59,624 nucleotides of DNA from contig NZ_RQYL01000017.1 of the NCBI RefSeq assembly GCF_003860125.1, forward strand, positions 1 through 59,624, in the 5' to 3' direction. Made by a program: the position numbers and the translations under genes. Origin of the DNA: Fretibacterium sp. OH1220_COT-178. GTDB taxonomy: Bacteria > Synergistota > Synergistia > Synergistales > Aminobacteriaceae. Under the pieces are notes generated by a model. The model did no database searches. It had not been told where the DNA came from and was given only the letters and a program-made list of their open reading frames with translations. Below are positions 4,487 through 59,624 of the stretch, piece by piece (within the stretch, counting starts at the first letter, position 1; each line of letters begins with the position of its first letter).

Positions 4487-5671
4487 TCAATTTTGGTGTC
4501 CGTCGAGAAGTTCCTGCACTTCTGCAACTGTACAGCAATTTGCGTGTGCCAGAGTATTGCGACAGCAACGTAAGAAATCGATGCGTTTTCTAAGGCTTTC
4601 ATCCGGGAGATACAGCATATACATTCGATCTGCTTTTCTTTGGTGAAGCATATAATGCAGCCCACCGAGGTCAAGATCCTCCGGGGTTTCGACTTCTTTC
4701 TCGTATTGCTTCATAGGGCACCCCCCGGAGGATAATTCCTTTAAAGCAACATCGATTTCATCGCGTAGCTGCTGGATAACCCCCATGCGTTCAATCTCAA
4801 TAAGCGGGAAAAGTACCTGCACTTGTGCCGTCCATAGCCTTTTCTTCAGTTCGGCGACATTTCCCTGCCGTGAGCAGGCAAGAATATGAGTGCTCGCAAC
4901 GTTACTACCTCTGCGCTCAAACTCTGGCATATCCGCGACACACCGTACCCTCTCCAACGGTTCTTCGTGTTTGAAATCCGTGGTGCCGATCAACCTTTCA
5001 GAAACTTCGGCATCCATTCCGCACAGGAGGGCGGCAACATTTGCAATATACTTTTTCCAGTTGTCGCCATAAGGAAATCGTCCGTCCGGATCATCCAGGA
5101 CAAAACTGTTAAAAAGCTGCAAATCGTAGCCGCCAACGTAATCGCTGAATTTAATACTTTTCAATTGTTTTCTGTTGGGAACAAAAACGTTATCCTTTAC
5201 CTCCAGCACAAAAAGACCATCTTCAACGGAATGTACTGTATATTTGCTACAGAACTCTATCCACTTTGAAGCACGGTTACCATCAAGCCCCTTAACCCAC
5301 ACGACACAATTTTGAAGGGCCCTATTCTGGACAAGGTAATCCTGGATTGTGACTCCGGCACTCTCACGATACCCGTTTCGTACGGTAGGGTCACGAACAA
5401 TATTCTCCAGAAGGTACCTGCCGGGTTCCCTATCTCTGGAACATTCTTCGTCATCGTCCAGAAACTGAATGAGTGTATTTGTTGAATTGGCGTGTTGTTT
5501 AAATTCCGATTCAGAAATTTGACGCATGGAGTGGCGCCACGGCAAATCTTCCGGAACCGTCAGCACGACCGTGTTTTTATCAAGCAATGCATCTACTGTC
5601 TTCAATATGACCGTATGGGGTCCCGTAATACTGTTCCACCAGAAATTTGCCCACTGATCACTTGTCATCAT
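4487..5671 (-). CDS. HEPN-motif protein, likely RNase effector paired with the STAND-like ATPase
   Basis: This encodes 394 residues that I cannot name. The C-terminal 60 residues are helical and contain RNTLAH (about 371-376), a perfect R-x4-H HEPN ribonuclease signature. The first 200 residues look like an alpha/beta domain (VILKTVDALLDKNTVVLTVP, about 20-40) without a Walker A motif, perhaps an inactive P-loop domain. The ATG at 5671 follows AGAGG and overlaps the end of the 1799-residue ATPase gene by 14 bases, so the two are translationally coupled. By analogy with HEPN toxins it may cleave RNA when the partner senses infection. The HEPN motif is seen; the activity is inferred. Confidence 0.75.
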   Translation of the reverse strand: MMTSDQWANFWWNSITGPHTVILKTVDALLDKNTVVLTVPEDLPWRHSMRQISESEFKQHANSTNTLIQFLDDDEECSRDREPGRYLLENIVRDPTVRNGYRESAGVTIQDYLVQNRALQNCVVWVKGLDGNRASKWIEFCSKYTVHSVEDGLFVLEVKDNVFVPNRKQLKSIKFSDYVGGYDLQLFNSFVLDDPDGRFPYGDNWKKYIANVAALLCGMDAEVSERLIGTTDFKHEEPLERVRCVADMPEFERRGSNVASTHILACSRQGNVAELKKRLWTAQVQVLFPLIEIERMGVIQQLRDEIDVALKELSSGGCPMKQYEKEVETPEDLDLGGLHYMLHQRKADRMYMLYLPDESLRKRIDFLRCCRNTLAHANCCTVAEVQELLDGHQN

Positions 5672-8600
5672 GAGAGACCTCTGCTTTGTTGTTGTCACGA
5701 ATGTCCTTCTCAATGCTTTCTATGCTGGCTCCTACATAATCGATGAAAGCATGACGCCGCATACGATACGCGACAGACGGGTTGGAATCTTGCCTGGGTT
5801 TACTTAAAATCCCCATATCAACCATTTCGTCCAGAAGTACTGTCTGCTCTGAAGAACTTTTTTCCTTCAGGCAATGGATATCATAGGAAGTCACGACCTG
5901 TTTGATGTCATCAACCGTAAACCCAAGGCGGCGTTCGCCAGCATAATAGTAATGCAATAAAACGATGCAACGGGCAAGCATGGAATAATGTTCGTCGAGG
6001 TCAAGTGACCACTGAAACTTATCACGGATGCTCCTGTTTAAATCCGCAGAGTTCATAATGGAGCCAAGTTGAGCCTCCTTGAGAGGGAATGGCGGGTTGT
6101 TGTTGACGTTATAATATTTTTCGTAGTCATCCATGAATGTCTGTACAAGGGTATAGCCGAAGAACTGGAGAATTCCTGGATAGTAATTTGTGTTTGTAAG
6201 GATGGTTTCCAGGTGCGGATTTTCAATCTGGAACCCGAGATAGCGCAGCGGCCTTGACAGCAGTTGTATGGCATCGATTGGAGAAAGCGGCTTGATGCAA
6301 AGCGAACTCCCTAACTGCCCAAATATACCATTGAGCGCCGTGGCATTTTTAGCGCGACAAACATTATGGAGCCCGGCCAGCACGAATTTGAAGTTATTTT
6401 TTGTAACACGTTTTAATTCAATCAATGGCTGCAGAGGGGCATATTTAACCTTACTGATGGCCTCCAGAAAGTTGTCAGCCTCATCTATAAGGAGCAGCAT
6501 TGATGCAATCTTGTGTTTACGGAACATCGCGCCAATCTGGTCGCATAACCCCTTCAATGTATTGCACGAGGTGAAAGACAACCCCGTTTTTCCCGTAATG
6601 TCGCCACAGAGTTTTTCCACAAGCGGTCCTTCCTGCTTGTAATCCTTGATATCGCTGAACACCGCATAAGCCTGATTTTCAGGGGCATGGAAACGGCTTT
6701 CAGCACGCTGGAGCAGGGCTGTCTTGCCAAGCTGGCGACCGCCATAAACCACGCAAGCCCCTGTTGGCTGCAGGATTGAGGCAAGTTCACTGCGGCGTCC
6801 AAAGAACATCTCCTCTGCCACTGCCCCACCGTCACGCAAAAACGGCTGGTATGTTGTGTATGGCAACGTACACTTAAGCATGGAAGGAAGGCGTTCGGCA
6901 GACTGGTGCATAGCAAGATACAGTACAAGCACCCGGTCAATCAACAAAAACGGGCGCTGCCACGATGTCTGTGTATGGAACGTCTCAGCCACCTGTCTGC
7001 GCTCCGCCTTATCGAGGAAATGGTCGATAAGGACGATAACAGGCCCACTGGGGTTCTTCATAGAAGCTAGAATCTCTATGATCTCCCTGGCAGGATGCTT
7101 CCCGTACAATACGAGAACAGAAAGCGGCGACTTCATCTGTGTTCCGAAAGCAGCAATAGGATGGTTATAATCCGTCCGATTTGCGTCTACCTTTGTTACA
7201 AGAAGGCTATATTGCTCTTCCTTCGTACCTGATATTTTTTTGATTCCATTCACTGTAAAACCTAGAGATGAAAAGAATGCCCTGAGCTGACTGTCCGTAC
7301 CCGCAATATCCTTGCTTACAGGCCAGTTCTCAAGAAAGGTCTGACTGTCATCCCTCAACCTGCTGGTCCAATCGCCGGATGTTGTTTTCGCCTTCATGGC
7401 CTGAATAACATAGTCTACTCCAAATTTTTTCAGCGGTTTCCCCGTGTTGCGACGACATGTGTTATAAATAGGCTCGAAGCTTTCATCGGAAAGGAATTCA
7501 GACAATCCCTCGCCGCTATCCTGCGTTGCCGTCAATTCATCCTCCGAAAACTGCGTCTCACCGTTATCAAAGCGATTGATATACTCCTCAGCAACAGTAA
7601 AGTTTTTGTCCTGCTCCAGCAGCCTTTCAGCCTCTTCCAGAAGCAATGATGTTCCATCTGCATGCAATCTGGCCCTGCGTTCCGACAGATCTTTACGCAG
7701 CTCGGACTGCCGTTGCGCAGTAAAATCCTCAATTTGCTGTCCCAGGGCATGCAGAAACTGCCCCCAGCAGCCAAAATCTCTGGGCTCGTCCACATCCTGC
7801 TCAGGGGTTGGGAAGAAGTTCTCTCTGTACATTTCCAGGATGTCAAACAGGTTTTCCTTGGAGTCCTCATCAATGCGATAAAAGGTGTAATCCAGTTCAA
7901 GGCGATCCTTGAATTCTTTTGTCCTGATTTCCGCCGTTTTTCGGGCACTGATTATGTCCTGTCTGGAGACAGTATGTCCCGGACCGCTCAGATAGTTTTC
8001 AATCATCAACAGTTGATGCAGATTATCCTGCATGGAAGAGCCCCGTCTGAACACCTCATCCCTTGCTTCTTTCAGGCTGAGGACCGGCGCGGTGATATGG
8101 CGCAACACATTGCGCCAAGGTTCATAGTATTTAACATCGCACAACGACTCGTCCATGACGGGAATACCATCATCGTCCAGAGAAATGATCCCTGTGGACA
8201 ATAAATCCGCAAAGGGCAAGGTCTCCTCACGATCACCCTGCAGGCGCCGCCGCATAAGATCAAGCATACGGAGCAGAATACACGGTTCGTCTGATCTATA
8301 CATTGGCGTGAGGTCAGCAGTTAGCTCATTGAGGACACTCAGAATCTCCGTCCTCAGGTTGTAGATTCTGCCGGTATTGTAATGACGGTTCTCTACATCT
8401 TCGATTTCGCACCATGTTTTCATAAGTCTCAGACGCCTGTAAAAGGCGTTCAAGATTTGCTGCTTTGCAACGTATTGTAAAGATGTAAGCCTGATCATAT
8501 TGTTTCCCAGTCTGGTCCTGGCCCATTCCTGATCAAGTTTTTGATCAATTTTTTGTTCTGACAGCTCAAGCGAAGAATCCTCACCCTCATCGCAATACTC

Positions 8601-11057
8601 AGCAAGGACACTTTTAACAAGCTCTTTTTCGCTTCTGCGGTTTTCGTGTATGATCTCTAAGCAGGTATAAAGATCGCTGCTGTGGCCAAAACAGGCGCTG
8701 CACATTTCGGGCAGGCCATTGATTTTAATTCCAACAGCCGTTTTTCTGTGATGCATCAGTGTCTCTGCCTCGGATTGCAGCCTCTCCACAAATGCAGTGC
8801 TCTCTGCCTTGTCCCCCAAAAGGCTTAGTACAGTATCTGTAAAACCATCCGCAACTGTATCTTTGACATTACAAAGTGTGTTGAAAAGAGACTTAAGCGC
8901 TGGGTAGGACGGGAAAACAGAGTCATAATCTGACAGCAATTGATCCGCCTGGGACCATAACGTGTAATCACGCGTCTGATTGGGGAACAAAAGTCCATAC
9001 AGATAAGCAGAAAGCATCATACTTTCTGTCTTATTCATGGGGGTGGGGAATGCGTTAAGCAAGTTTATCCCCGTATAATCGACATTGTCCAACGGCAGAT
9101 TTGTCGCCAGCAAAAGCTGCTGGTAAAGTTTTTTGCTCTTGGGGTAGTTTTTCTCAAACGAAGCCGCCTTGGCGAGAAGGATTGCCCTGGTTATTCCACG
9201 ATAGTTGACCTCGGATTCAGGTTCATTCCCCGCGCTTTTTAGCAGTGCGAAGATTAACTCCTCCATAAGATCATCGTCAGGAAGAACTTGGGCATCCAGG
9301 ATAATCTGTGATGCCTTTACTACATCACCATTTCCCAGGGCATCATAGATCGTCTCAAGAGTTGTTGCCTCCCCTTCTGGGGCCTCCTGCCTTTTTTCCG
9401 GACTTTCCAGAGCAGCAGGTTCTCCGGTCGAACTAACGTCGGTAGCAGGTTCTTCTGCCTTTTTTGTTTGTCCAGGCATTTTGTTGACAGCGTCAGTAAT
9501 GTTATCGGGTTCAACCGCATTTGCGACATCAGAAACTGTATCACAGCATCGGGTCAATTTACCATGATTGAAGATGAAGCATTCACGGTTTTTGTAGAAG
9601 CTGTCGTTTACTTCCTCCAGAGTATCCGCTATGATCAGGATATTCTCCGCACTGTCTTTAGCATCGCAGACAGACTCAATTATCTGACAGCTGAAGTTTT
9701 CCCCTTCCCAGGGGACAACGACGGAGAAATGATTCTCTTTCCATGATATTGAAGCAGTAATCTTGTTGTATTCCTCCCTGGACAGCTGTTCCTTCATCCC
9801 ATGCAAGTAATTTAACAGCAAATTGTTCTGGCTGACAGCAGAATTTAAGGTATTCTTTTCGATGGTATCACCGCCATGCAGTGGATGATGGCCTAAAGGC
9901 AGTGCCCAAAAACTCCTCCCAGACTTACTCAACTTAAGGTTGACGATTGTACTTTTTGCCAGACATCTATGTCCATAGTGTGTCAGACAATAAACGTCCC
10001 GCTCCGGTTGCTGAGCATCCGTTTCATAAGCAACAAGGCAGTTCTTTGCGATTAACTCGTCCAATGTGTTTTTGATCGAAATTTTAATTTTAGTCGCGCT
10101 AATATCAGGCTTATCTGCTGGATCATCCAGAAAGTCGAGTGCAATTCCAACTTCATAAATCTGATCGACGGTTAATGCACCAAGGTGTGTAAAAAACGGT
10201 AGGATAAAGTGAGCCTTATGGTATATTCGCGCTACATTAGAAACATCACCTGTAAAGGATTTCGCGCTGAGGGTCAGTCCATCTTTTACTTTTGTTTTGG
10301 CGTGAAACAGTTCCTTCGAAGAGTTCTCATCCGTAATTGCGATTTCAGGTTCTTTTTCCAGAGTCTTAGGATGAAGCCTGCCTTCGTTTGGAGTGGAGTT
10401 TCTACCCACATTTTCGTTTATAGTCTGAGAACTGACCGGTTCTGCTGACGTTCCATCAGGAATATAATATTGCCCCATGGCAAGGCCAATTTGCACAACT
10501 TGAGGGTAAATGCTCCCGGCCTTCTCAAGAAGCCTAAATTTTTCTTCGGACTGAAGGTTTTTCTCATCAAGGATTTTAAGGAAAATCCTGTGGCCATCTG
10601 ACGTTTCAACAACTTCTGGGGAAATGGCAGAATAATTGTTTTTGAGCTGTTGAAGCATTTGGGAGGCTTTTTCCTGATAGGGAGCAAGTGCTTGTGAACA
10701 CTCAGCCATCAATGATCTGACATCAACGAAGCGTTGAAGAACGGTTTCTATCTCCCGCAGCTGTGCTTTGATCTGCTGAAGTTTGCTTGCATCGACGGCC
10801 TGTACGCACTCACTGATGGAGCACCCCTCAGTTGGAAGTTCCCCATCAGCGACCATAGATTGTGTCAATGAATAGACGGCGTCATATTGCTCTTGCAGCC
10901 TCTCCATTGCTGCATCAAATTCCGAGATGCTCTTCTGATCAGGGACACGTCCATCCTCCAGCAGGTTGAGTATATTGGATAACTGTTCCTTCACTCCATC
11001 TGCCATTCTATAAAACTCAGCTACAACATGGCCAAATTCTGCAGATTGCATCACCAT
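5658..11057 (-). CDS. Giant STAND-like ATPase, probable sensor of a two-gene conflict system
   Basis: This encodes a 1799-residue cytoplasmic protein. Residues 10-140 are coiled-coil-like. A winged-helix-like stretch may lie at about 265-350, followed by roughly 900 residues of helices. The P-loop ATPase begins at about 1415 with FFGRRSEL, then Walker A GGRQLGKT (1439-1446), Walker B LLLIDEAD (1521-1528) and a sensor-like FKFVLAGLHNV. A winged helix seems to end the protein. An unassigned alpha/beta domain (LGFTVNGIKKISG) precedes the ATPase. The ATG at 11057 has GGTGGG close by; GTG at 11063 and ATG at 11051 are alternatives. The layout suits a ligand-sensing STAND switch controlling the HEPN protein encoded next. 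Confidence 0.8.
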   Translation of the reverse strand: MVMQSAEFGHVVAEFYRMADGVKEQLSNILNLLEDGRVPDQKSISEFDAAMERLQEQYDAVYSLTQSMVADGELPTEGCSISECVQAVDASKLQQIKAQLREIETVLQRFVDVRSLMAECSQALAPYQEKASQMLQQLKNNYSAISPEVVETSDGHRIFLKILDEKNLQSEEKFRLLEKAGSIYPQVVQIGLAMGQYYIPDGTSAEPVSSQTINENVGRNSTPNEGRLHPKTLEKEPEIAITDENSSKELFHAKTKVKDGLTLSAKSFTGDVSNVARIYHKAHFILPFFTHLGALTVDQIYEVGIALDFLDDPADKPDISATKIKISIKNTLDELIAKNCLVAYETDAQQPERDVYCLTHYGHRCLAKSTIVNLKLSKSGRSFWALPLGHHPLHGGDTIEKNTLNSAVSQNNLLLNYLHGMKEQLSREEYNKITASISWKENHFSVVVPWEGENFSCQIIESVCDAKDSAENILIIADTLEEVNDSFYKNRECFIFNHGKLTRCCDTVSDVANAVEPDNITDAVNKMPGQTKKAEEPATDVSSTGEPAALESPEKRQEAPEGEATTLETIYDALGNGDVVKASQIILDAQVLPDDDLMEELIFALLKSAGNEPESEVNYRGITRAILLAKAASFEKNYPKSKKLYQQLLLATNLPLDNVDYTGINLLNAFPTPMNKTESMMLSAYLYGLLFPNQTRDYTLWSQADQLLSDYDSVFPSYPALKSLFNTLCNVKDTVADGFTDTVLSLLGDKAESTAFVERLQSEAETLMHHRKTAVGIKINGLPEMCSACFGHSSDLYTCLEIIHENRRSEKELVKSVLAEYCDEGEDSSLELSEQKIDQKLDQEWARTRLGNNMIRLTSLQYVAKQQILNAFYRRLRLMKTWCEIEDVENRHYNTGRIYNLRTEILSVLNELTADLTPMYRSDEPCILLRMLDLMRRRLQGDREETLPFADLLSTGIISLDDDGIPVMDESLCDVKYYEPWRNVLRHITAPVLSLKEARDEVFRRGSSMQDNLHQLLMIENYLSGPGHTVSRQDIISARKTAEIRTKEFKDRLELDYTFYRIDEDSKENLFDILEMYRENFFPTPEQDVDEPRDFGCWGQFLHALGQQIEDFTAQRQSELRKDLSERRARLHADGTSLLLEEAERLLEQDKNFTVAEEYINRFDNGETQFSEDELTATQDSGEGLSEFLSDESFEPIYNTCRRNTGKPLKKFGVDYVIQAMKAKTTSGDWTSRLRDDSQTFLENWPVSKDIAGTDSQLRAFFSSLGFTVNGIKKISGTKEEQYSLLVTKVDANRTDYNHPIAAFGTQMKSPLSVLVLYGKHPAREIIEILASMKNPSGPVIVLIDHFLDKAERRQVAETFHTQTSWQRPFLLIDRVLVLYLAMHQSAERLPSMLKCTLPYTTYQPFLRDGGAVAEEMFFGRRSELASILQPTGACVVYGGRQLGKTALLQRAESRFHAPENQAYAVFSDIKDYKQEGPLVEKLCGDITGKTGLSFTSCNTLKGLCDQIGAMFRKHKIASMLLLIDEADNFLEAISKVKYAPLQPLIELKRVTKNNFKFVLAGLHNVCRAKNATALNGIFGQLGSSLCIKPLSPIDAIQLLSRPLRYLGFQIENPHLETILTNTNYYPGILQFFGYTLVQTFMDDYEKYYNVNNNPPFPLKEAQLGSIMNSADLNRSIRDKFQWSLDLDEHYSMLARCIVLLHYYYAGERRLGFTVDDIKQVVTSYDIHCLKEKSSSEQTVLLDEMVDMGILSKPRQDSNPSVAYRMRRHAFIDYVGASIESIEKDIRDNNKAEVSHDDK

Positions 11058-11107
11058 TCCCACCTTTCCTGAATATCACGCCGCATTCTATGTAAGAAAG
11101 TCAAGGG

Positions 11108-12442
11108 TTATTTACAAATTCTGTCAATAGCCAGAGAAAAAGTCACCTTTGGTTCCCCCAGTTCCGAGATAGGGAGAGAGTTTTTCCTGAAAGAGCGCTT
11201 CCAGGGGTGGTCGGGGGCAGGTTTGTGAGCGTTCACAAGCCTCGCCCCTTTGTCCTTCGCGGTTTTGTTCGAGGCGGCGGGCTTCGGCCTTTCGACCTCC
11301 TTCATCTCGATGCGCCGGCCCTTGCAAACGGCCCATATCCTTCCCGAGAGAGTCTCCCTGACCTCCACGGAAGCGTGGGCCATAGAGCCCTTCTCAGGGG
11401 TACTGGGGGCATAGGTTCGTCCCCTGTAGGAAAAGCTTCCGCCCCCATCTGTTTTACGCGTTTGGCGTCGAGCGAAGAGGAAATCGGCATCGACCCTCTC
11501 CACAGGCTTCACGTAGGCGGTCTCCTGTTCTGCGGGCAGAACGGCAAACTTCCTGTTGTGTTTTGCGATGAGCTTGGGCAGGACCTTGTTGGCTTCATCT
11601 ATGTCTTTGATGCCAAGGAGTCTCAGTTCCCCGGTCAGCCTGTCCTGCAAGGTGTTCCACAGGCGCTCGATGCGCCCCTTTGCCTCCGGGGTGAGTGCAA
11701 AGATCTGATCTATGCCAAGGTCCTTCAACCCCTGTGCGAAGTTGCTCAAGGAGCGTTCTTCGCCCTCTTCTTCGGAGGATTTCTGAGGGGAACGGAAGAT
11801 CGTGTGCCTGTCGCTGTAAATCTCCATGGGCAGACCATACCGTTCCCGTCCGATGCTCAGAGCGGCGACATATCCTGCGGTGCTCTCGTTCTTGGTGAAC
11901 CAGGCGCCAACGACCCGTCCTGTGGCGTCATCGATGTAGGCGTGGAGGGCAGCATAGCCCTTCCCCTTGCCGAACCACTCGAACCTGGAAGCGTCGGTCT
12001 GCCAGAGCATGCCTGCAGCCTGTTTTCGTGGCCGAGGTCGATGAAGTTTTGCTTTGCGCCTGACGCTTTTCTTGCTTGTGAATCCCTCGGCGCTCAGAAT
12101 GCGCACGACGCTCGAACGGCTTAAGTCTATCCCTTCGACCTCCTTCAGGCTGTCGGTGAAATGGGAGAAATTGAAGTCATGATACTTTTCCCGGTATAGA
12201 CCGAGCACTTTGAGTCGGATGTGCTCTCCAATCCTGTGCAGGGGATGTCTGCCTCTGTTCCCGTGAATGATGCCCGCTTCCCCCTGGTCCAGGTACTTTT
12301 TCCTAAGTCTGATGATCTGCCTCCGACAGAGCTTTAAGGCCTCCGCCGCCTCCTGGTTGGTCATCATCCCGTTGACCACCATCTCCAAGACCTTGATGCG
12401 CTTGATATCTTTTTGTGACAAAGTCACTCTCTCCTGCTCCAT
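11108..12442 (-). CDS. DDE transposase, IS1202/ISNCY-like
   Basis: This 444-residue transposase looks intact. A helix-turn-helix region (NQEAAEALKLCRRQIIRLRKK, split over about 30-50) precedes an RNase H-fold integrase core. The catalytic acids are in WQTDAS (first D), YSDRHTIF (second D) and KGRIERLWN (E). The C-terminal domain has GGSFSYRGRTYAPSTP. The length and layout fit the IS1202 group of ISNCY, with IS481 as the nearest alternative. The start is uncertain: ATG at 12442 gives MEQERVTLSQKD, and TTG at 12457 adds five residues. I could not define terminal inverted repeats. The stop lies only 50 bases before the STAND-like ATPase gene. Confidence 0.85.
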   Translation of the reverse strand: MEQERVTLSQKDIKRIKVLEMVVNGMMTNQEAAEALKLCRRQIIRLRKKYLDQGEAGIIHGNRGRHPLHRIGEHIRLKVLGLYREKYHDFNFSHFTDSLKEVEGIDLSRSSVVRILSAEGFTSKKSVRRKAKLHRPRPRKQAAGMLWQTDASRFEWFGKGKGYAALHAYIDDATGRVVGAWFTKNESTAGYVAALSIGRERYGLPMEIYSDRHTIFRSPQKSSEEEGEERSLSNFAQGLKDLGIDQIFALTPEAKGRIERLWNTLQDRLTGELRLLGIKDIDEANKVLPKLIAKHNRKFAVLPAEQETAYVKPVERVDADFLFARRQTRKTDGGGSFSYRGRTYAPSTPEKGSMAHASVEVRETLSGRIWAVCKGRRIEMKEVERPKPAASNKTAKDKGARLVNAHKPAPDHPWKRSFRKNSLPISELGEPKVTFSLAIDRICK

Positions 12443-12514
12443 GCCGATATTATCCAAAAGACCTACCGCGGCAGAGGGGGGGCCTTTTCACTGAACACTT
12501 ATAGGTTGACATCA

Positions 12515-24721: not shown

Positions 24722-24889
24722 ACAATTTACGAAGGCTGCAAACAGAGTAGGCCATGCGCGTCAAGTGTCCGCAGATGGGATGTCGCTGCGGAACGAAACG
24801 AGGGATCGTACGATGCGTGGCTGCGTCCGCTGTTGAGGTTCAAGCTACACTCATCGCGGAGCGCTGTCGAGGACAGTGCTCTTTTTGTT
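24722..24889 (+). ncRNA. Structured leader ending in a terminator: attenuator, riboswitch or small RNA
   Basis: The leader contains a 7-bp hairpin (TCCGCAG and CTGCGGA) and a palindrome ATCGTACGAT. It ends in a 10-bp terminator stem (24859-24868 with 24872-24881, 3-base loop) followed by TTTTTG. The next gene starts 28 bases later. I do not recognise a known riboswitch class. It could equally be a free small RNA with its own promoter. Confidence 0.55.
24859..24887 (+). terminator. Intrinsic terminator inside the DUF3798 leader
   Basis: A 10-bp stem (GAGCGCTGTC and GACAGTGCTC, one G-T pair) with loop GAG is followed by five T residues. Its place between a strong promoter and the ribosome site suggests conditional read-through. 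Confidence 0.8.
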
Positions 24890-52138: not shown

Positions 52139-52918
52139 TCAGTCCTCGATGACCCCCATCGCGTCCGAGGACTCGGGAAGGATCTGTCCGCCATCCACCA
52201 CGAGGGCCTGCCCCGTGATGAACCTGGCCTTGTCGGACCCCAAAAAGGCCATGGCGTAACCGATGTCCTCGGGAGTCCCCAGGCATCCCAGGGGGATCGA
52301 CTTCGTCATGGTCTCGAGGTATTCCTCGCCGAGCCCCTGAAGCCCCTCGGTAAGGACGTTTCCGGGCTGCACCGCATTGACCCGGATGCCGTAGGGCGCC
52401 AGCTCGATGGCGGCCGAGCGCATGAACCCCAGCTGGGCGGCCTTGGTGGCCCCATAATGGCTCCAGCCGGTGAAGCCCGTGATGGGCCCCGTGATGGAGG
52501 AGGTGATGAGGACGGCCCCGCCGCCCTGCGCCTTCATGATCGGGACGGCGGCACGCACGCAGAGGAAGAGCCCCTTGACGTTGACGGCGTTGATCTGGTC
52601 CCACTCCTCCTCGCTCATCTTGGCGATGGTGGACATGGGGAAGATCCCGGCGTTGCTGCACAGGACGTCCAGGCTCCCCATGCGCGAGGCCGCGTCCTTG
52701 ACGAGGCGCTCGGCGTCGTCCGCCCGGCTCACGTCCGCAGGGCAGGAGAACACCTCGCCATAGGCGGAGAGGTCCCGAACCGCATCGCGCAGCTGCTCCT
52801 CCCCGCGGCCCGCAATCATCACCCTGGCCCCCTCCGTCAGGAAGGTCTTGGCGATTCCCTTGCCGATCCCCTTGCTGGCGCCCGTCACCAGCGCCGTCTT
52901 TCCCTCGAGCAGTCCCAC
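52139..52918 (-). CDS. Short-chain dehydrogenase/reductase (SDR)
   Basis: This 259-residue NAD(P)-dependent oxidoreductase has TGASKGIGKGIA (about 12-23) for cofactor binding and the NNAG-like SNAG motif near 90. The catalytic triad appears as S (SSITG), Y (WSHYGATKAAQ, about 152-156) and K. The end has VDGGQILPES. The substrate is unknown. GTG at 52918 is favoured, with AAGGTG 6 bases before; an earlier GTG at 52927 adds three residues. It lies upstream of ugd in the same direction, with a 96-base gap. Confidence 0.88.
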   Translation of the reverse strand: MGLLEGKTALVTGASKGIGKGIAKTFLTEGARVMIAGRGEEQLRDAVRDLSAYGEVFSCPADVSRADDAERLVKDAASRMGSLDVLCSNAGIFPMSTIAKMSEEEWDQINAVNVKGLFLCVRAAVPIMKAQGGGAVLITSSITGPITGFTGWSHYGATKAAQLGFMRSAAIELAPYGIRVNAVQPGNVLTEGLQGLGEEYLETMTKSIPLGCLGTPEDIGYAMAFLGSDKARFITGQALVVDGGQILPESSDAMGVIED

Positions 52919-53194
52919 GACGATCACCTTGCCTTTCTCGCTTGATACAGGGTATTAAACCAACTCTCGCGAATTTAGACAACCGTTTTTCGGCCCGTTC
53001 CGCGCAGGGAGAGGCGTATCTCAAAACAAGGACAACCGCAGACGGTGCTGTTTCATTCCGACCGAGGGAACCCATGTACCTCGGAGCACTTTTGATGCTT
53101 TTGGGATGAGCGTAACGCCGTGCAGTCTTTCTCTGCACCTGGCTGTCCGTACAAATATATACGGCGGTGGGGTCCTTCTTCAAATTTTTCACGA

Positions 53195-53345
53195 AAGGAG
53201 GAGTCGAACCGAAGGCATTTTCGTAACCAAAAGGGAACTCAAGCCTTCCTCATTTGTGTACATCAAGGGCTTTTACAACTCCAAATAGCCTACATTGTCC
53301 CCGATGGTACTCTGTAGCAGGACGAAAAAGAAGCTATGTTTACCT
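53195..53345 (+). pseudogene. Probable IS3-type transposase C-terminal remnant
   Basis: In the plus strand one frame reads FVYIKGFYNSK, then a stop, then a TLSPM-like segment, as in the C-terminal part of IS3 OrfB (I-x-F-Y-N-x-x-R...L-S-P). There is an in-frame stop and no upstream core. The rest of 52919-53400 holds no gene that I can see. Confidence 0.35.
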
Positions 53346-53413
53346 CATATCATGATTTCTTCGCTTATCGTGTCTTTTTTCTTGACTAGAGCCCACAAAA
53401 AAACGTCAAAATG

Positions 53414-53441
53414 TTGCTTTTAATTCGACGAGAAGTATAAT
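53414..53441 (+). promoter_or_regulatory. Promoter of the sugar-acid TRAP locus
   Basis: TTGCTT (53414-53419), a 16-base spacer and a perfect TATAAT (53436-53441). The predicted start falls inside the palindrome at 53450. Confidence 0.65.
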
Positions 53442-53449
53442 GTAATCAT

Positions 53450-53462
53450 CTTGTATTACAAG
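53450..53462 (+). promoter_or_regulatory. GntR/FCD operator candidate
   Basis: A perfect 13-base palindrome CTTGTATTACAAG matches the FadR-subfamily pattern T-N-G-T-N3-A-C-N-A. It lies 8 bases after the -10 element, where a bound repressor would block RNA polymerase. The GntR/FCD regulator at 56573 is the likely binder. Confidence 0.65.
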
Positions 53463-53613
53463 TTGGACTTGCTTGTGAGCTGTTTTTGTCTTGGATTGCT
53501 GTTTGTTGACGGCAATAGAAGCTCGTATTTCTAGGCGTCTGGAACTTTATCAGCGTTTCTCTGGCTCTCGGAATTTAAGCAGAACACAATAAAATCTTGA
53601 GGAGGAGCGGATC

Positions 53614-54609
53614 ATGAGGAAAGCAGTGGCAGTCTTTGGCGTTGTCGCGTTATCGATAATGTTTGTGGCCTCCGGATGCCTCCGTGCAGGAGCGAACGAG
53701 CTGGTGTTTCAATTAGCCATGGTGGATCCTGAGACTTCTCCATACTACAAGGGAGCAGCAAAAGTTGCTGAAGAGGTTGCAGCGGCCACCGATGGAAGGA
53801 TCAAGATCAAAATAGCCGCCGGTGGTACGCTTGGAGGGGAGCGCGACACCGTTGAGCTTGCAATGACGGGTGATATTGACATTGCTACGGCAGCGAATTC
53901 AGTGATGACTAATTTCATCCCCGAGATGAGTATCTTGGATCAAGCCTTTTTATGGTCCAACGCAAAACAAGCACATGCGGCAGTGGATGGCCCCGTCGGA
54001 GTGCTCATTCAAGAAAAAGCAAAGAAACTCGGTCTGCATGTGATCGGCTATATGGAGTCCGGGTTCCGGAATGTCTTTTCGGTAAGGCCCATAGCAAAGA
54101 TTGAGGATTTTACCGGAATCAAGATTCGAACCATGCAGAATCAGTACCACATGACAGCGTTTAGCGCCTTCGGGGCAATGCCTGTCGCAATGGCGGCCGG
54201 GGAACAGTTTACGGCACTACAGCAGGGAACCATCGACGCAGCGGAAAACGCAATTGCAAACTGCTGGAACAATGGCTTCTATGAAGTTACGAAGAACATC
54301 ACATATTCCAATCACGCATTTGTCTACATCCTCCTCTGCATGTCAAACGAGGCGTGGAACAAAATCCCGGAAGATTTGCGTGAACCTTTCCTTTCAGCAG
54401 TTAAACGGGGTTGTGATGCCGAGCGCCAATATCTCGTCGAAGCCAACGAGGATGCCACAGAGAAACTCAAGGGAGCCGGCGTCGCCTTTCACAATATCGA
54501 CCACATGACATTGAAAACCGCCTACGAGAAGGCAGCCAAAGAAAAAGGGCTGAAGTTTGATCCTGCATGGGAAGCTGCCGTTACCGAAGTCCTCGCCTCA
54601 GTTAAATAA
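53614..54609 (+). CDS. dctP: TRAP transporter substrate-binding protein, DctP family
   Basis: This 331-residue periplasmic protein has a signal peptide with a lipobox-like VASGC (about 18-22). The DctP fold shows GGTLGGERDTVELAMTGDID (about 70-89) and the IKIRTMQNQYHMTAFSAFGA segment (about 169-188). The conserved Arg of the TRAP selectivity site is the R in IKIRTMQ, which usually pairs with a carboxylate. The ATG at 53614 follows GAGGAGG. The sugar-acid enzymes in the same locus suggest a uronate or aldonate ligand. Confidence 0.92.
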   Translation: MRKAVAVFGVVALSIMFVASGCLRAGANELVFQLAMVDPETSPYYKGAAKVAEEVAAATDGRIKIKIAAGGTLGGERDTVELAMTGDIDIATAANSVMTNFIPEMSILDQAFLWSNAKQAHAAVDGPVGVLIQEKAKKLGLHVIGYMESGFRNVFSVRPIAKIEDFTGIKIRTMQNQYHMTAFSAFGAMPVAMAAGEQFTALQQGTIDAAENAIANCWNNGFYEVTKNITYSNHAFVYILLCMSNEAWNKIPEDLREPFLSAVKRGCDAERQYLVEANEDATEKLKGAGVAFHNIDHMTLKTAYEKAAKEKGLKFDPAWEAAVTEVLASVK

Positions 54610-54637
54610 AGGCCTGTTCTGAGAACGACCGGTTTAA

Positions 54638-54680
54638 AAGGCAACGGAATCTCTATTAGACTGAGGGCCTCCGTTGCCTT
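54638..54680 (+). terminator. Hairpin between dctP and dctQ
   Basis: An 11-bp perfect stem (AAGGCAACGGA and TCCGTTGCCTT) with a 21-base loop is followed by AATTATT. It may be a partial terminator that gives more binding protein than membrane subunits. Confidence 0.6.
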
Positions 54681-54707
54681 AATTATTGATCGGCGACTGG
54701 GGGAATC

Positions 54708-55241
54708 ATGAAGCGTATTTTGAGTTTCTGCCAAAAGATGGAGAATGCGATCCTGGTTGTTACGTTTTCGTCCATGGTGTTGATGTTTTTTGTCCAGGTT
54801 CTTAACCGAAATATCTTCAAGTTACCCGGACTAGCTTGGCTTGAGGAGTTGGCGACGTATTGCCAGATCTACATGGTGCTGATCGGCACGGAAATCGGTC
54901 TTCGAGACGGTACTCAAGTATCCGTTACAGCTGTTATTGACTGTCTGAAAGGACGAGCCTACAAAATCGTCCGAATCCTGGCAAAGATCATCGTCATCGT
55001 GTTCTCCGGAACACTCGCATTCAGTACGATCCGGCTCCTTCGAGTGCAATTACTGAGCGGCCAGACATCCTCCGCAATGGGCATTCCCATGGTAATTCCC
55101 TATTTTGCACTGACTCTGAGTTTTACTGTCATTACGCTGGTACAGAGCGCAAGCCTGGTTGGAATGCTGAAGGATTGCAATCCTCACCTCATAGGCACAA
55201 AGGAGGAAAGCTCCGAGAAGGAGAGGGAGGAGAACATATGA
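54708..55241 (+). CDS. dctQ: TRAP transporter small permease, DctQ family
   Basis: This 177-residue protein has four hydrophobic helices. The segment WLEELATYCQIYMVLIGTEIG (split at about 45-65) is the DctQ signature. The ATG at 54708 has a GGGGGAA ribosome site. Its stop codon overlaps the dctM start. Confidence 0.9.
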   Translation: MKRILSFCQKMENAILVVTFSSMVLMFFVQVLNRNIFKLPGLAWLEELATYCQIYMVLIGTEIGLRDGTQVSVTAVIDCLKGRAYKIVRILAKIIVIVFSGTLAFSTIRLLRVQLLSGQTSSAMGIPMVIPYFALTLSFTVITLVQSASLVGMLKDCNPHLIGTKEESSEKEREENI

Positions 55242-56515
55242 CAGGCATCTTGTTGTTCGGCAGCTTCGCGTTGTTTCTAATTCTCGGGGTTCCCATCGCC
55301 CTGTCGCTGAGCGCAGCAACAATGTTCACGATCGTGGCGAGTTCAGACGTGTCGGCTTCAATCTCCACAGTTGCTCAAAGGATCTATGGAGGCTTGGAGT
55401 CCACATCTATCATGGCCATAGCTTTTTTCGTTCTGGCGGGCAATTTGATGACCAAAGGTGGAATTTCGCGTCGTATCGTGGATTTTGCGAATTCCATTAT
55501 TGGTGGAGTCCGTGGAGGCATGGCACTTGCCTTAGTTTTGGCATGCGCTTTCTTTGCAGCGCTCTCTGGCTCTGCCCCGGCAACAGTAGTAGCTATCGGA
55601 GTCATGCTTTACGACGATATGGTGCGTATCGGATATCCTCCCAAACGAGTGGCAGGACTTCTGGTTATTTCAGGAGGATTGGGCCCCATCATTCCCCCCA
55701 GCATCATCATGGTGATCTACGCAACGCTCACGGGAGCATCGGTTGGAAATATGTTCCGCTCCGGAATGCTGATTGGTATTATCATCATGCTGGCGCTAAT
55801 GGGCGTGGGGGCCTACTATGCCTATAAAGAATCCTGGCCCAAAGCGAGGAAGAAATATTCTATCGGCGAGTTCTGGGTCTCCGCTATTAAGGCAATCCCT
55901 GCCCTGATGCTGCCAATCATCATATTGGGCGGAATTTACAGCGGTTTTCTGACTCCCACGGAGTCAGCTGCAGTTGCGGTTGTCTGGGCATTGATCGCCG
56001 GAATGTTCATCTATGGAGAAATTCATGCATCAGATCTCGTGCCAATTCTTCTGCAATCGGCAAAGAGTTCTGCGATGATCCTTTTTATCATCGGAACCTC
56101 GACAGCCTTCTCCTGGCTTTTCACTTTTACCGGACTCTCCCGTTCGCTAGTCGCCTCCGTTTCTGCGATGAATCTCGGTCCTTCACTTTTTTGTGTCGTG
56201 GTCGCGGTTGTCTTGCTGGTGTTTGGAACCTTCATGGAGGGTATTGCCATAGCTGTGCTTCTGGTCCCCGTGCTCTGGCCAATAGCTCAGAACATGGGTA
56301 TTGATATCATCCACTTTGGCATGATCGTGTGCATCTCAAACGTTATTGGAACAATGACCCCTCCCGTAGCCGTAAACATCTTCGCAGCATCTTCCGTAAC
56401 GAAACTCAAGATGGGGGATATCTCCAAGGCAGGCATCCCTTTCTTTGTCGCTTACCTGATGGTTTTTGTGTCCGTGGTCTTGGTCCCCGCACTGAGCAAA
56501 ATAATGGTGCGATAA
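55238..56515 (+). CDS. dctM: TRAP transporter large permease, DctM family
   Basis: This 425-residue inner-membrane protein has about 12 helices and is the sodium-coupled transport subunit. The signatures ALSGSAPATVVAIGVMLYDDM (about 108-128, split) and GLGPIIPPSIIMVIYATLTG are clear. The late segment GTMTPPVAVNIFAASSV is also typical. The ATG at 55238 forms an ATGA overlap with the dctQ stop and follows AGGGAGGAG. Confidence 0.95.
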   Translation: MTGILLFGSFALFLILGVPIALSLSAATMFTIVASSDVSASISTVAQRIYGGLESTSIMAIAFFVLAGNLMTKGGISRRIVDFANSIIGGVRGGMALALVLACAFFAALSGSAPATVVAIGVMLYDDMVRIGYPPKRVAGLLVISGGLGPIIPPSIIMVIYATLTGASVGNMFRSGMLIGIIIMLALMGVGAYYAYKESWPKARKKYSIGEFWVSAIKAIPALMLPIIILGGIYSGFLTPTESAAVAVVWALIAGMFIYGEIHASDLVPILLQSAKSSAMILFIIGTSTAFSWLFTFTGLSRSLVASVSAMNLGPSLFCVVVAVVLLVFGTFMEGIAIAVLLVPVLWPIAQNMGIDIIHFGMIVCISNVIGTMTPPVAVNIFAASSVTKLKMGDISKAGIPFFVAYLMVFVSVVLVPALSKIMVR

Positions 56516-56572
56516 CACCCCACCTCGGACGATTTTAGACGCCCTCGGCAAAGAACACGCAGAGAGTCTATC

Positions 56573-57253
56573 ATGTCGCTTCAAGCAAAGTTAAGTGTCA
56601 TCCAACAGGTTTCAGAATATCTGAAGGCACATATTCAAGATGGAAGCTGGCCTGTCGGGAGTAAGATTCCGTCCGAGAATACCTTGGCCCATATCCTGGG
56701 GGCCAGTCGTGCAAGCATCCGGGTTGCCATACAGCAGTTTGTCGGCGTGGGGGTGCTTGAAAGCTGGCAGGGCAAGGGGACTTTCGTGAAGAGGGACATT
56801 TTGGATGTGTTTCCCAGCAAAGACTCTGTCCTGGCACAAAAGACCTACATGGATATCGAGAAGGTCTTAGAATTTCGCAGCTTTCTAGAACCCGAAGGAT
56901 GCCGTATCGCCGCTAGGAATCCGACACCTGAATTGATACAGGCGCTGGAACGGCATTTACGGAATATGATGGATAATATCGGTAACAGGAAGGTTTTTGT
57001 AGAACAGGATATCCTGTTTCACAAGTGCATTGCGCAAGGTTCAGGCAATATGCTTCTGGAAAAAAGCCTCTCAGAGGTGTTTAACGCAACCTTCTTGTTT
57101 CATCTTCAAATGAACGAAATATTTGGTTATCAGGATGGAATTTATTATCACTCTATCATTTTAAATGCGATTCGAAATAAAAAAACCAAATTAGCCCGAA
57201 AGTTGATGGATGAGCATATACAACAAGCCATTGCCCATTTGAAAGCTCAATAG
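56573..57253 (+). CDS. GntR-family regulator with FCD domain
   Basis: This 226-residue regulator has an N-terminal winged helix (SKIPSENTLAHILGASRASIR, about 29-49) and a C-terminal FCD ligand domain with E-x-R-x-x-x-E (VLEFRSFLEPEGCRIAA, about 96-112) and the usual late His residues that hold a metal. FadR-type regulators of this kind answer to sugar acids or organic acids. The ATG at 56573 lies 57 bases after dctM. Palindrome 53450-53462 is its likely operator. Confidence 0.9.
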   Translation: MSLQAKLSVIQQVSEYLKAHIQDGSWPVGSKIPSENTLAHILGASRASIRVAIQQFVGVGVLESWQGKGTFVKRDILDVFPSKDSVLAQKTYMDIEKVLEFRSFLEPEGCRIAARNPTPELIQALERHLRNMMDNIGNRKVFVEQDILFHKCIAQGSGNMLLEKSLSEVFNATFLFHLQMNEIFGYQDGIYYHSIILNAIRNKKTKLARKLMDEHIQQAIAHLKAQ

Positions 57254-57342
57254 CGACCGGTCTCTTAGGGCAAAAAGACAAAATTCCGTTGCGGTTCTTT
57301 GTAGAGTCGTTTGAGACGAATGTACAACAGGAGGACCTGGAG

Positions 57343-58137
57343 ATGAATCCAAACCGTTTGCGCATGGAACGTTGGAGAGTACAATCCCCCGAGGAGCCAG
57401 GGTTCCACCCTGTGATCATTCCCGATAAAAGCGAATGCCGTGTAGCACACGTATACCGACTAAACTTACAAAAAAACAAAGATTTTCTGATTGAATCCGG
57501 TAATTTGGAACTGCATCCCATCCTTATAGATGGCAACACATATTTGGGTGGACATCCCTCGCTCGATCAGGAAATGAATAAATTTGATTCTTTCTACATC
57601 CCGGCACAGACTTCCGTAACCTTAACAGCCTTGGAGGATAGTGTGTTCTACATTGCTGGAGCTCCCTATGAAGGGATCGGAGAGGCGGTTTTCCGTAAAT
57701 ACGATCCTGACCTGCCTATTGGAGAAATCCACCAGATCCATGGAGAGGGAGCGGGACGGCGTGAGGTGATGTTCACGCTAGCCACAGGAACACCGGCATC
57801 TCGGCTCATTTGTGGATTGACTTGGGGTGGCAATGGATCTTGGACCAGTTGGCCTCCACATCAGCACGAAAAGGATTTGGAGGAGGTTTATTGTTACCTC
57901 GACATGCCCGCGCCCGCCCTCGGTTTCCACATCAGTTATCTTGAAAGTGGCGGCATGGTGGACTCTGTTGTCCATCCAGTCCGCTCCGGAACAATGGTCG
58001 AGGTCCCCTGCGGATATCATCCTACAGTAGCCCCTCCTGGAATACGGAATACTTACTTTTGGGTGCTGGCCTCTTTTTCGGCTAAACAGCGCCGATACGA
58101 TCTGGCTATTCCAGATCCTGAATATCTGAAGTTTTGA
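57343..58137 (+). CDS. 5-deoxy-glucuronate isomerase family protein (IolB/KduI type)
   Basis: This 264-residue cupin-fold enzyme is predicted to isomerise a uronate-type sugar acid. The metal motif WPPHQHEKDLEEVYCYLDMP (about 170-189) and the late CGYHPTVAPPGIRNTYFWVL match IolB, including the His, Glu and His ligands. IolB acts on 5-deoxy-glucuronate in myo-inositol breakdown, but no other iol genes are here. A KduI-like or related uronate role is therefore possible. The ATG at 57343 follows AGGAGG. Confidence 0.85.
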   Translation: MNPNRLRMERWRVQSPEEPGFHPVIIPDKSECRVAHVYRLNLQKNKDFLIESGNLELHPILIDGNTYLGGHPSLDQEMNKFDSFYIPAQTSVTLTALEDSVFYIAGAPYEGIGEAVFRKYDPDLPIGEIHQIHGEGAGRREVMFTLATGTPASRLICGLTWGGNGSWTSWPPHQHEKDLEEVYCYLDMPAPALGFHISYLESGGMVDSVVHPVRSGTMVEVPCGYHPTVAPPGIRNTYFWVLASFSAKQRRYDLAIPDPEYLKF

Positions 58138-58158
58138 ATGCTTGAGGAAGAAATCATA

Positions 58159-59433
58159 ATGGAAATTTATAGAGAGTCGGAGCATCGCTCTCTGACGGAG
58201 ACCGAGATCCTCGAAGATCTCAAAACGCTGCTGGCCGGGTACCCTTCCCTCAAAAAGGTGCTGATTATTCCTCCGGACTTCACCCGCTTCCATTCTATGG
58301 CTGGAGAGATCACAGGGCTGCTTTGGCGGGAATTGAAAGGCCATGCGACCGTTCACGTAATGCCTGCCTTAGGCACACATATGGAGATGAGCGATGGGGA
58401 GCGGCTGAAGATGTTCGGCCCTCATATACCTAAAGCATGTTTTTTGACGCACCGCTGGCAGACCGATACTGTCTCGATCGGTCGTGTACCGGCGGACGTA
58501 ACCGAGGAGATCTCAGGTGGCCTTTTTGCCACAGATATCGAGGTGGAGGTCAACAAGCAGCTTCTCTCGGGAGGATACGACCTGATCTTGTCCGTGGGAC
58601 AAGTGGTTCCCCACGAGGTCGTTGGCATGGCAAACTACAGCAAGAACATCTTCGTCGGGATCGGCGGGCGGCAAATGATCAACAAAACCCACATGCTGGG
58701 CGCCTTGTGCGGCATTGAAGAGGCTCTCGGCAACGGGGACGCTCCGGTACGTCAAGTTTTCGATTACGCGCAGGAACACTTTCTCGGGGATTTTCCATTA
58801 GTCTATATCCTGACGGTCACAACTAGACATGGGAGGGACACCCATCTGAACGGCCTTTACATTGGCCCCTCCAGAAGGCCCTATGAAGAAGCCGTAAAGC
58901 TCTCGCAAAAACTGAACATCACCTACTTGGACCGCCCCGTCAAAAAGGTGGTTACCTATCTCGATCCTCACGAGTTTAAGACGACCTGGGTGGGAAACAA
59001 AGGGATTTACCGGACTCGCATGATCATCGCCGACGGCGGCGAGCTGCTGATCCTGGCCCCGGGAATCCGTGCCTGTGGGGAGAACCCTGAAATAGACGCC
59101 ATCATACGAGCCTATGGGTATAGGGGACGTAATACCACTTTGAAACTCTATAACGAAGGAGTATTCGAAAACCGGACCATGGTCGCCGCCCACCTTATTC
59201 ACGGCTCCACAGACGGACGTTTCCAAGTGATCTACGCAACGGACCCGGCCCTGTTCTCGGGCAAAGAAGTCGAGGCAATCGGCTATGAACATATGGAATT
59301 AGCAAAAGCTCTATCTATCTACGACCCAGACACCCTGGAGGACGGGTTCCATACATTGCCCGACGGCACGGATTTCTACTTTGTCAAAGCCCCCGCCATG
59401 GGGCTTTGGAAGCTCTCGACAGGAATTTCCTGA
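58159..59433 (+). CDS. LarA-family nickel-dependent 2-hydroxyacid racemase/epimerase
   Basis: This 424-residue protein has the LarA fold. The catalytic set of lactate racemase is conserved with the right spacing: His 74 in GTHMEMS, His 152 in PHEVVG, Lys 162 ten residues later (NYSKNI) and His 178 in NKTHML. LarA uses a nickel-pincer cofactor bound to that Lys to swap stereochemistry at a hydroxyacid carbon. Homologues include sugar-acid epimerases, and the locus suggests such a substrate. I chose ATG at 58159 since GAGGAA lies 10 bases before; ATG at 58138 adds seven residues. No LarBCE cofactor genes are in the window. Confidence 0.85.
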   Translation: MEIYRESEHRSLTETEILEDLKTLLAGYPSLKKVLIIPPDFTRFHSMAGEITGLLWRELKGHATVHVMPALGTHMEMSDGERLKMFGPHIPKACFLTHRWQTDTVSIGRVPADVTEEISGGLFATDIEVEVNKQLLSGGYDLILSVGQVVPHEVVGMANYSKNIFVGIGGRQMINKTHMLGALCGIEEALGNGDAPVRQVFDYAQEHFLGDFPLVYILTVTTRHGRDTHLNGLYIGPSRRPYEEAVKLSQKLNITYLDRPVKKVVTYLDPHEFKTTWVGNKGIYRTRMIIADGGELLILAPGIRACGENPEIDAIIRAYGYRGRNTTLKLYNEGVFENRTMVAAHLIHGSTDGRFQVIYATDPALFSGKEVEAIGYEHMELAKALSIYDPDTLEDGFHTLPDGTDFYFVKAPAMGLWKLSTGIS

Positions 59434-59463: not shown

Positions 59464-59624
59464 GGTTCCTCGTTATTCTGTGTGGGTAAGGATGAGTTCG
59501 AAATTGTCAGAAGTGGTATAATCGTAACATTATGAAAGACATTCAAGTGTTTGAAATCGCGCTTGGTCTGAAAAAGCCGTGGCATATCGAGTCCATAGAC
59601 CTCGATGCCGATAGAAACCGCCTT
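59464..59624 (+). mobile_element. Left end of an ISL3-family insertion sequence
   Basis: GGTTCCTCGTTATTC at 59464 onward resembles the terminal inverted repeat of ISL3 elements (GGTTCTTCGT-type, then GTGTGGGTAA). The transposase gene begins inside. The rest lies beyond the window. Confidence 0.7.
59532..59624 (+). CDS. ISL3-family transposase, N-terminal part
   Basis: The 31 visible residues read MKDIQVFEIALGLKKPW and continue HIESIDLDADRNRL. This matches the start of ISL3 transposases (L-G-L-x-x-P-W-x-V-x-S-x-x-x-D). A TATAAT lies 16 bases upstream. The gene is cut by the window end, so it cannot be judged intact. Confidence 0.75.
   Translation, partial: MKDIQVFEIALGLKKPWHIESIDLDADRNRL

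Follow-up and report, generated by a model that had tools for sequence, protein, structure and literature searches.

Enzymes of two groups of LarA homologues (LarAH), 19 and 20, convert D-mannonate and D-gluconate into each other (PMC7583248), and epimerisation of mannonate to gluconate was shown in vitro for GntE1 and GntE2 (PMC7583248). Rodionova et al. 2012, cited in PMC6978723, had also proposed this reaction for Thermotoga. For group 18, a hexonate substrate is predicted and no activity is reported in two papers on these enzymes (PMC7583248, PMC11770544). Here we describe a group-18 gene of Fretibacterium sp. OH1220_COT-178 located at the end of contig NZ_RQYL01000017.1. The entire contig, 59,624 nucleotides long, was analysed and is called the window. 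Six intact plus-strand genes at 53614-59433 encode the DctP, DctQ and DctM components of a tripartite ATP-independent periplasmic (TRAP) transporter, a GntR/FCD-family regulator, a KduI/IolB-like protein and the LarA homologue (Table 1). An earlier sequence-only reading of this DNA had placed these functions on one strand, and all of them were found there, tightly packed. We lean towards the view that the six genes form a horizontally acquired operon for hexuronate/hexonate utilisation, in which the KduI-like protein and LarAH18 catalyse the two isomerisation steps described below.

The LarA homologue and its relatives

The LarA homologue scored 578.9 bits over residues 16-425 against NF052594, the NCBIfam model for LarAH group 18 ("nickel-dependent putative hexonate epimerase"), and passed the curated cut-off of 500. 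Its catalytic and cofactor residues, D40, R43, H74, H152, K162, H178 and K281, are complete, as had been noticed from the sequence. All seven are invariant in an alignment of 14 group-18 sequences with the genome's own canonical LarA-type protein, which equates them with D72, R75, H108, H174, K184, H200 and K298 of LarA. The signature of groups 18-20, E-V/S after the catalytic His and a Trp in alpha-11 (PMC7583248), is kept as H152-E153-V154 and W277. The genome also carries genes for synthesis of the nickel-pincer cofactor: larC on contig C12 (438 bits), larE on C25 (300 bits, cut-off 150) and larB on C15 (PF00731, 62 bits; 36% identity over 249 aa to an NCBIfam-called LarB). The possibility that the organism lacks larBCE, which the sequence-only reading had named as fatal to its proposal, was not borne out. 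One further true LarA-type gene lies on contig C4, and its nearest solved structure is the malate racemase Mar2. A match on contig C3 was rejected as a third LarA homologue, because it is a DUF362 ferredoxin-type protein.

We then compared the neighbourhoods of 15 other intact group-18 loci. Thirteen of these adjoin sugar-acid enzymes (UxuA, an IlvD/Edd-type dehydratase, a GarL-type aldolase or gluconokinase). Five of the loci, in genomes of the same family (L048-L052), combine the group-18 gene with UxuA, GntP, 2-hydroxyacid dehydrogenases and an HpaI-like aldolase, and a UxuB-like reductase is also seen in four of them; a contig end truncates L052. At L053-L056 the gene's neighbour is a GarL/HpaI-type aldolase; two of the four loci also show GntP and an IlvD/Edd-type dehydratase, and the other two contigs start too near the gene to show more neighbours. 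Three Alteromonadaceae (L016, L062 and L063) have a GntK-type gluconokinase followed by the group-18 gene and then larE and larB, with larC and a TRAP transporter in two of the three and uxaC within the stretch, likewise in two. On a contig labelled Lentisphaera (L014), GntK and a sugar transporter are upstream of the group-18 gene. Saccharobesus litoralis encodes GntK and LarAH18 as a single in-frame protein of 589 aa (L063:9419-11188, plasmid NZ_CP026605.1). The two Acidobacteria loci (L015 and L017) showed no sugar-acid partner among the genes tested, and group 18 had zero matches in phage records.

Because of these 13 neighbourhoods and the in-frame gluconokinase fusion, D-mannonate/D-gluconate is the best-supported substrate pair for group 18, and the window LarA, a predicted C2-epimerase, most likely interconverts the two. 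The neighbourhoods, and above all the fusion, make this a concrete and testable substrate pair.

Two side observations concern these loci. The fusion protein of S. litoralis is annotated as a gluconokinase only. At L057:240-918 (genome G059), we found a decayed group-18 locus with aldolase and LarA remnants (136-aa open frame), suggesting that group 18 was lost in one genome of the genus.

The KduI/IolB-like protein and the proposed route

The KduI/IolB-like protein belongs to PF04962 (90.7 bits, gathering threshold 23.9) and keeps the metal-site motif H173-x-H175-x4-E180...H226, which is invariant in six aligned sequences. It scored 22.8 bits on NF002091, the model for KduI or 5-dehydro-4-deoxyglucuronate isomerase (cut-off 250), and 71.4 bits on TIGR04378, the model for IolB or 5-deoxyglucuronate isomerase (cut-off 205), and is less than 33% identical to annotated IolB proteins. 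A canonical KduI or IolB identity was rejected, as the scores are far under both equivalog cut-offs.

Two close orthologues occur in the phylum, in G001 (74% identity) and G136 (70%), and both are beside the same TRAP genes. The gene order in G136 is DctPQM, KduI-like and UxaE (tagaturonate epimerase, PF16257 2e-179), while that in G001 is GntR, DctPQM, ManD-like dehydratase, KduD-like short-chain dehydrogenase/reductase (SDR), KduI-like, SDR, PfkB kinase and Gnd. A 31% identical KduI-like relative in G085 follows UxuB/UxaB-like, UxaA, 2-keto-3-deoxy-6-phosphogluconate (KDPG) aldolase and PfkB kinase genes, with convergent TRAP genes beside it. UxaC (PF02614) is absent from the window genome (G000, 99.96% complete) and from G136, G085, G176 and G177. 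The aldose-ketose isomerisation of 5-deoxyglucuronate by IolB is chemically of the UxaC type. In E. coli, KduI aids the breakdown of galacturonate and glucuronate (PMC3578941). Considering the neighbours of its relatives, the absence of UxaC, the chemistry of IolB and the role of E. coli KduI, we propose with moderate confidence that the KduI-like protein probably stands in for UxaC. It can thus be tested as a candidate for the uronate isomerase that is missing where members of the phylum have no UxaC.

In the proposed route, DctPQM would import a hexuronate (D-glucuronate and/or D-galacturonate), and the KduI/IolB-family metalloenzyme would convert it to a ketouronate (fructuronate or tagaturonate) in place of UxaC. 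A reductase encoded elsewhere or past the contig break would reduce the ketouronate to D-mannonate. LarAH18, with its larBCE-made cofactor, would invert C2 by proton-coupled hydride transfer and so link D-mannonate with D-gluconate. UxuA, whose gene is present on contig C26, would drain D-mannonate to 2-keto-3-deoxygluconate (KDG), and an exit from D-gluconate would require a gluconokinase or a dehydratase. The opposite direction, gluconate to mannonate, is equally conceivable for LarAH18. The GntR/FCD protein would repress from a palindrome upstream of dctP until a pathway intermediate releases it. The genes, the group-18 assignment and the active site agree with the sugar-acid uptake and isomerisation operon that had been read from the sequence, and we infer the substrates and the reaction direction throughout the route. 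In its complete form, with a non-UxaC hexuronate isomerase of the KduI/IolB type acting on TRAP-imported uronates, coupled to a nickel-pincer epimerase and routing through mannonate/gluconate in a host without UxaC or the usual fructuronate reductase, the scheme is a tentative one.

UxuA passed its cut-off in 58 genomes of the phylum. A KduI-like relative (E <= 1e-15) occurred in 4 of the 11 of these that lack UxaC and in 1 of the 47 that have it (Fisher p = 0.0035), an enrichment in favour of a stand-in for UxaC. The value ignores phylogeny and comes from an E threshold picked after the data were seen; these limits, together with the following points, weigh against the route. The anticorrelation was gone without conditioning on UxuA (p = 0.43), and G001 has both UxaC and the KduI-like orthologue. 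Genomic context does not always predict the activity of LarA homologues (PMC7583248). No close KduI-like relative was found beside LarAH18 in the other group-18 loci, so that the pairing rests on the window locus. The operon genes include neither an oxidoreductase nor a dehydratase, kinase or aldolase. A mannitol-dehydrogenase-type UxuB (PF08125) is missing from the genome, SDR-type reductases not having been searched genome-wide, and so is a GntK-type gluconokinase, the same limit applying to FGGY kinases. Therefore, the middle of the pathway and the gluconate exit are unfilled, and of the UxaC-UxuB-UxuA isomerase pathway the genome retains UxuA, with PF02614 and PF08125 absent. The locus had been described as self-contained. 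That description could not be maintained, as the genes cover no more than uptake, regulation and two isomerisation steps and the contig breaks 191 bp downstream of larA.

Separately, the UxuA-family matches in G019, G015, G018 and G165 each contain a single stop (TAA or TAG) inside the matched stretch; these may be gene ends within the profile alignment, or pseudogenes.

Organisation, control and composition of the operon

Gene calls in the high-GC loci were made with tblastn and codon-position GC. The Pfam E-values of the operon proteins range from 3e-12 (Lar_N) to 7e-105 (DctM), and chance matches are therefore excluded. As dctQ and dctM overlap and the frames of the KduI-like gene and larA almost abut, the genes were read as one operon. 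Most of the six have clear ribosome-binding sites. The KduI-like gene starts at an ATG after AGGAGG, so a TTG start further upstream is not needed, and larA has GAGGAAG 8 nt before the ATG at 58159, an alternative ATG at 58138 being possible.

Table 1. Features of the operon region in window coordinates
Feature	Position	Strand	Evidence
Putative promoter	53414-53441	+	TTGCTT 53414-53419, 16 nt spacer, TATAAT 53436-53441
Putative GntR operator CTTGTATTACAAG, 13-bp palindrome	53450-53462	.	8 nt after -10
dctP, TRAP solute-binding protein, 331 aa	53614-54609	+	NF037995 275 bits (cut-off 50); PF03480 3e-70
dctQ, TRAP small permease	54708-55241	+	PF04290 4e-23
dctM, TRAP large permease	55238-56515	+	PF06808 7e-105; TIGR00786 365 bits (cut-off 268)
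GntR/FCD-family transcriptional regulator, 226 aa	56573-57253	+	PF00392 3e-15; PF07729 1e-20
KduI/IolB-family protein, 264 aa; predicted hexuronate aldose-ketose isomerase	57343-58137	+	PF04962 1e-25
larA homologue, LarAH group 18, predicted nickel-pincer hexonate C2-epimerase, 424 aa	58159-59433	+	NF052594
ISL3-type transposase start, first 31 aa, MKDIQVFEIALGLKKPWHIESIDLDADRNRL	59533-59624	+	48-52% identical to ISL3 family transposases, E 5e-4

DctP, DctQ and DctM are all above the curated cut-offs for a DctP-type TRAP transporter, and DctP is 85% and 51% identical to its G001 and G136 counterparts, respectively. R152, R172 and N212 of DctP have the spacing of the Arg150/Arg170/Asn210 trio of the hexuronate-binding STM3169, and this trio would be compatible with a uronate ligand without singling one out. 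The nearest solved structures to DctP are 4pdd, 4nq8, 4pdh, 4ovs and 7bbr.

The regulator reached no NCBIfam equivalog cut-off, and its membership was established at the superfamily level only. On the ExuR/UxuR-type models it scored 28.7 bits (NF008571, cut-off 396) and 21.7 bits (NF007588, cut-off 442). The putative promoter, with a perfect -10 and a weak -35 (3/6), was read from the sequence; the consensus scan did not call it, and scans for promoter and terminator consensus gave results no better than those on shuffled sequences. The palindrome following it is the only site of its kind in the window. The GntR proteins of the window and of G001 are 52% identical, and the homologous G001 operon (L093) has near-identical palindromes, each one base away from the window palindrome: CTTGTATGACAAG lies upstream of dctP and CTTGTCTTACAAG upstream of gntR. 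Because of this recurrence, the window palindrome is a reasonable candidate for the GntR operator.

The sequence-only reading had described the segment as less GC-rich and as flanked on both sides by remnants of insertion sequences (IS). Its composition is indeed atypical, with 50.1% GC compared to 67.6% for window positions 12500-52900, and GC at third codon positions (GC3) of 0.48-0.64 in the operon genes compared to 0.91-0.96 in three adjacent genes. From this, the operon looks horizontally acquired. The homologous TRAP and KduI genes of G001 have GC3 of about 0.6-0.77, below most surrounding genes, as if the cassette moves. An IS was present on the right side, where an ISL3-type transposase start runs off the contig end; it is not a part of the operon and marks the break. 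On the left side, no IS was found in 52928-53613 by plasmid blastn and six-frame reading by eye. The contig stops at 59624, and the sequence therefore does not extend to whatever follows larA. A FabG-like SDR at 52139-52927 was considered as the pathway reductase and ruled out of the operon, being on the minus strand with GC3 of 0.91.

Elsewhere in the window, a second low-GC island (4487-12457, about 46-50% GC) carries three minus-strand genes: a 408-aa open reading frame with no Pfam match (4487-5713), a gene at 5658-11063 whose 1801-aa product has an AAA-type ATPase domain at its C terminus and, at 11108-12457, a transposase-like gene with helix-turn-helix and weak rve matches. PADLOC gave no match on this island. 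A tetrahydrofolate riboswitch aptamer lies at 24741-24834 on the plus strand (RF01831, 78 bits, gathering threshold 36).

Alternative routes and comparison with described systems

The same genes could serve a route that begins from an aldonate. The TRAP transporter would then import D-gluconate or another hexonate, LarAH18 would convert it to D-mannonate and UxuA would yield KDG, the KduI-like protein serving a second, co-imported substrate. The order GntP, group 18 and UxuA in the five same-family genomes is the one that a flow from gluconate through mannonate to KDG would naturally call for, and TRAP binding proteins for 6-carbon aldonic acids exist (PMC5812351). The window genome, which has UxuA and neither a GntK-type kinase nor a mannitol-dehydrogenase-type UxuB, also fits this direction. 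However, a uronate-type isomerase in the operon is then left unexplained, and the orthologous TRAP genes are accompanied by UxaE or by KduD-like and ManD-like genes. We therefore regard this explanation as rather doubtful.

It is unlikely that the KduI-like protein performs the classical KduI reaction on unsaturated uronates from pectin or glycosaminoglycan, in a 4-deoxy-5-hexulose-uronate (DKI) pathway, with LarAH18 acting on another aldonate. Its orthologue in G001 is flanked by two KduD-like SDRs (TIGR01832 292 and 289 bits, cut-off 339) and has the PfkB KDG-kinase-like gene in the same locus, which speaks for this reading. Its own scores fall far short on both the KduI and the IolB model, and the neighbours in G136 (UxaE) and G085 (UxaA with UxuB/UxaB-like) act on tagaturonate/fructuronate and altronate, not on DKI. 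The foreign composition, the IS at the contig break and the missing reductase and gluconate exit could also mean that a partial pathway was acquired and left stranded, with little or no growth benefit to the host. All six genes are intact, the strongly constrained residues are kept, the cofactor genes are present and the missing steps may lie beyond the contig end; such an outcome seems very improbable.

Returning to the hexuronate/hexonate operon that we favour, the window LarA has the cut-off score, the catalytic residues and the E-V/W signature of LarAH group 18 (NF052594; PMC7583248), whereas the neighbourhood of TRAP, GntR and KduI-like genes is peculiar to the window locus among the group-18 loci read. 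It shares the signature positions with GntE1 and GntE2, the D-gluconate/D-mannonate 2-epimerases of LarAH groups 19 and 20, and its closest solved structure is GntE2 of Thermotoga maritima (PDB 4nar; 129 bits, residues 11-363 of the 431-aa frame). It belongs, however, to a different LarAH group than these enzymes, and its hexonate activity is predicted. A GntR-like regulator, UxaR, is also found in the hexuronate context of Thermotoga (PMC7953866). The KduI-like protein has the superfamily and the H-x-H-x4-E...H motif of KduI and IolB, but its relatives neighbour enzymes of ketouronate or of altronate/mannonate. DctP resembles the hexuronate TRAP proteins STM3169 and Bpro_3107 (PDB 4mhf) in having two Arg and one Asn at equal spacing, although this trio is not specific for uronates and the nearest structures to DctP are other entries.

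The route had been called new from the sequence, which was overstated, since mannonate-gluconate epimerisation is published and the LarA homologue falls in a named family. A KduI/IolB-type isomerase combined with TRAP import and a nickel epimerase in the absence of UxaC was not found in the literature searched, and a KduI/IolB-type protein replacing UxaC is possibly the new element. In the Thermotoga route from mannonate through gluconate to 6-phosphogluconate (Rodionova et al. 2012, cited in PMC6978723), an epimerase joins uronate catabolism to gluconate, as predicted here; in the window genome, by contrast, no UxaC, mannitol-dehydrogenase-type UxuB or GntK-type kinase was found, and a KduI/IolB-type isomerase is in the operon. 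The operon is thus plausibly a variant of the known uronate-degradation theme and not a new kind of system.

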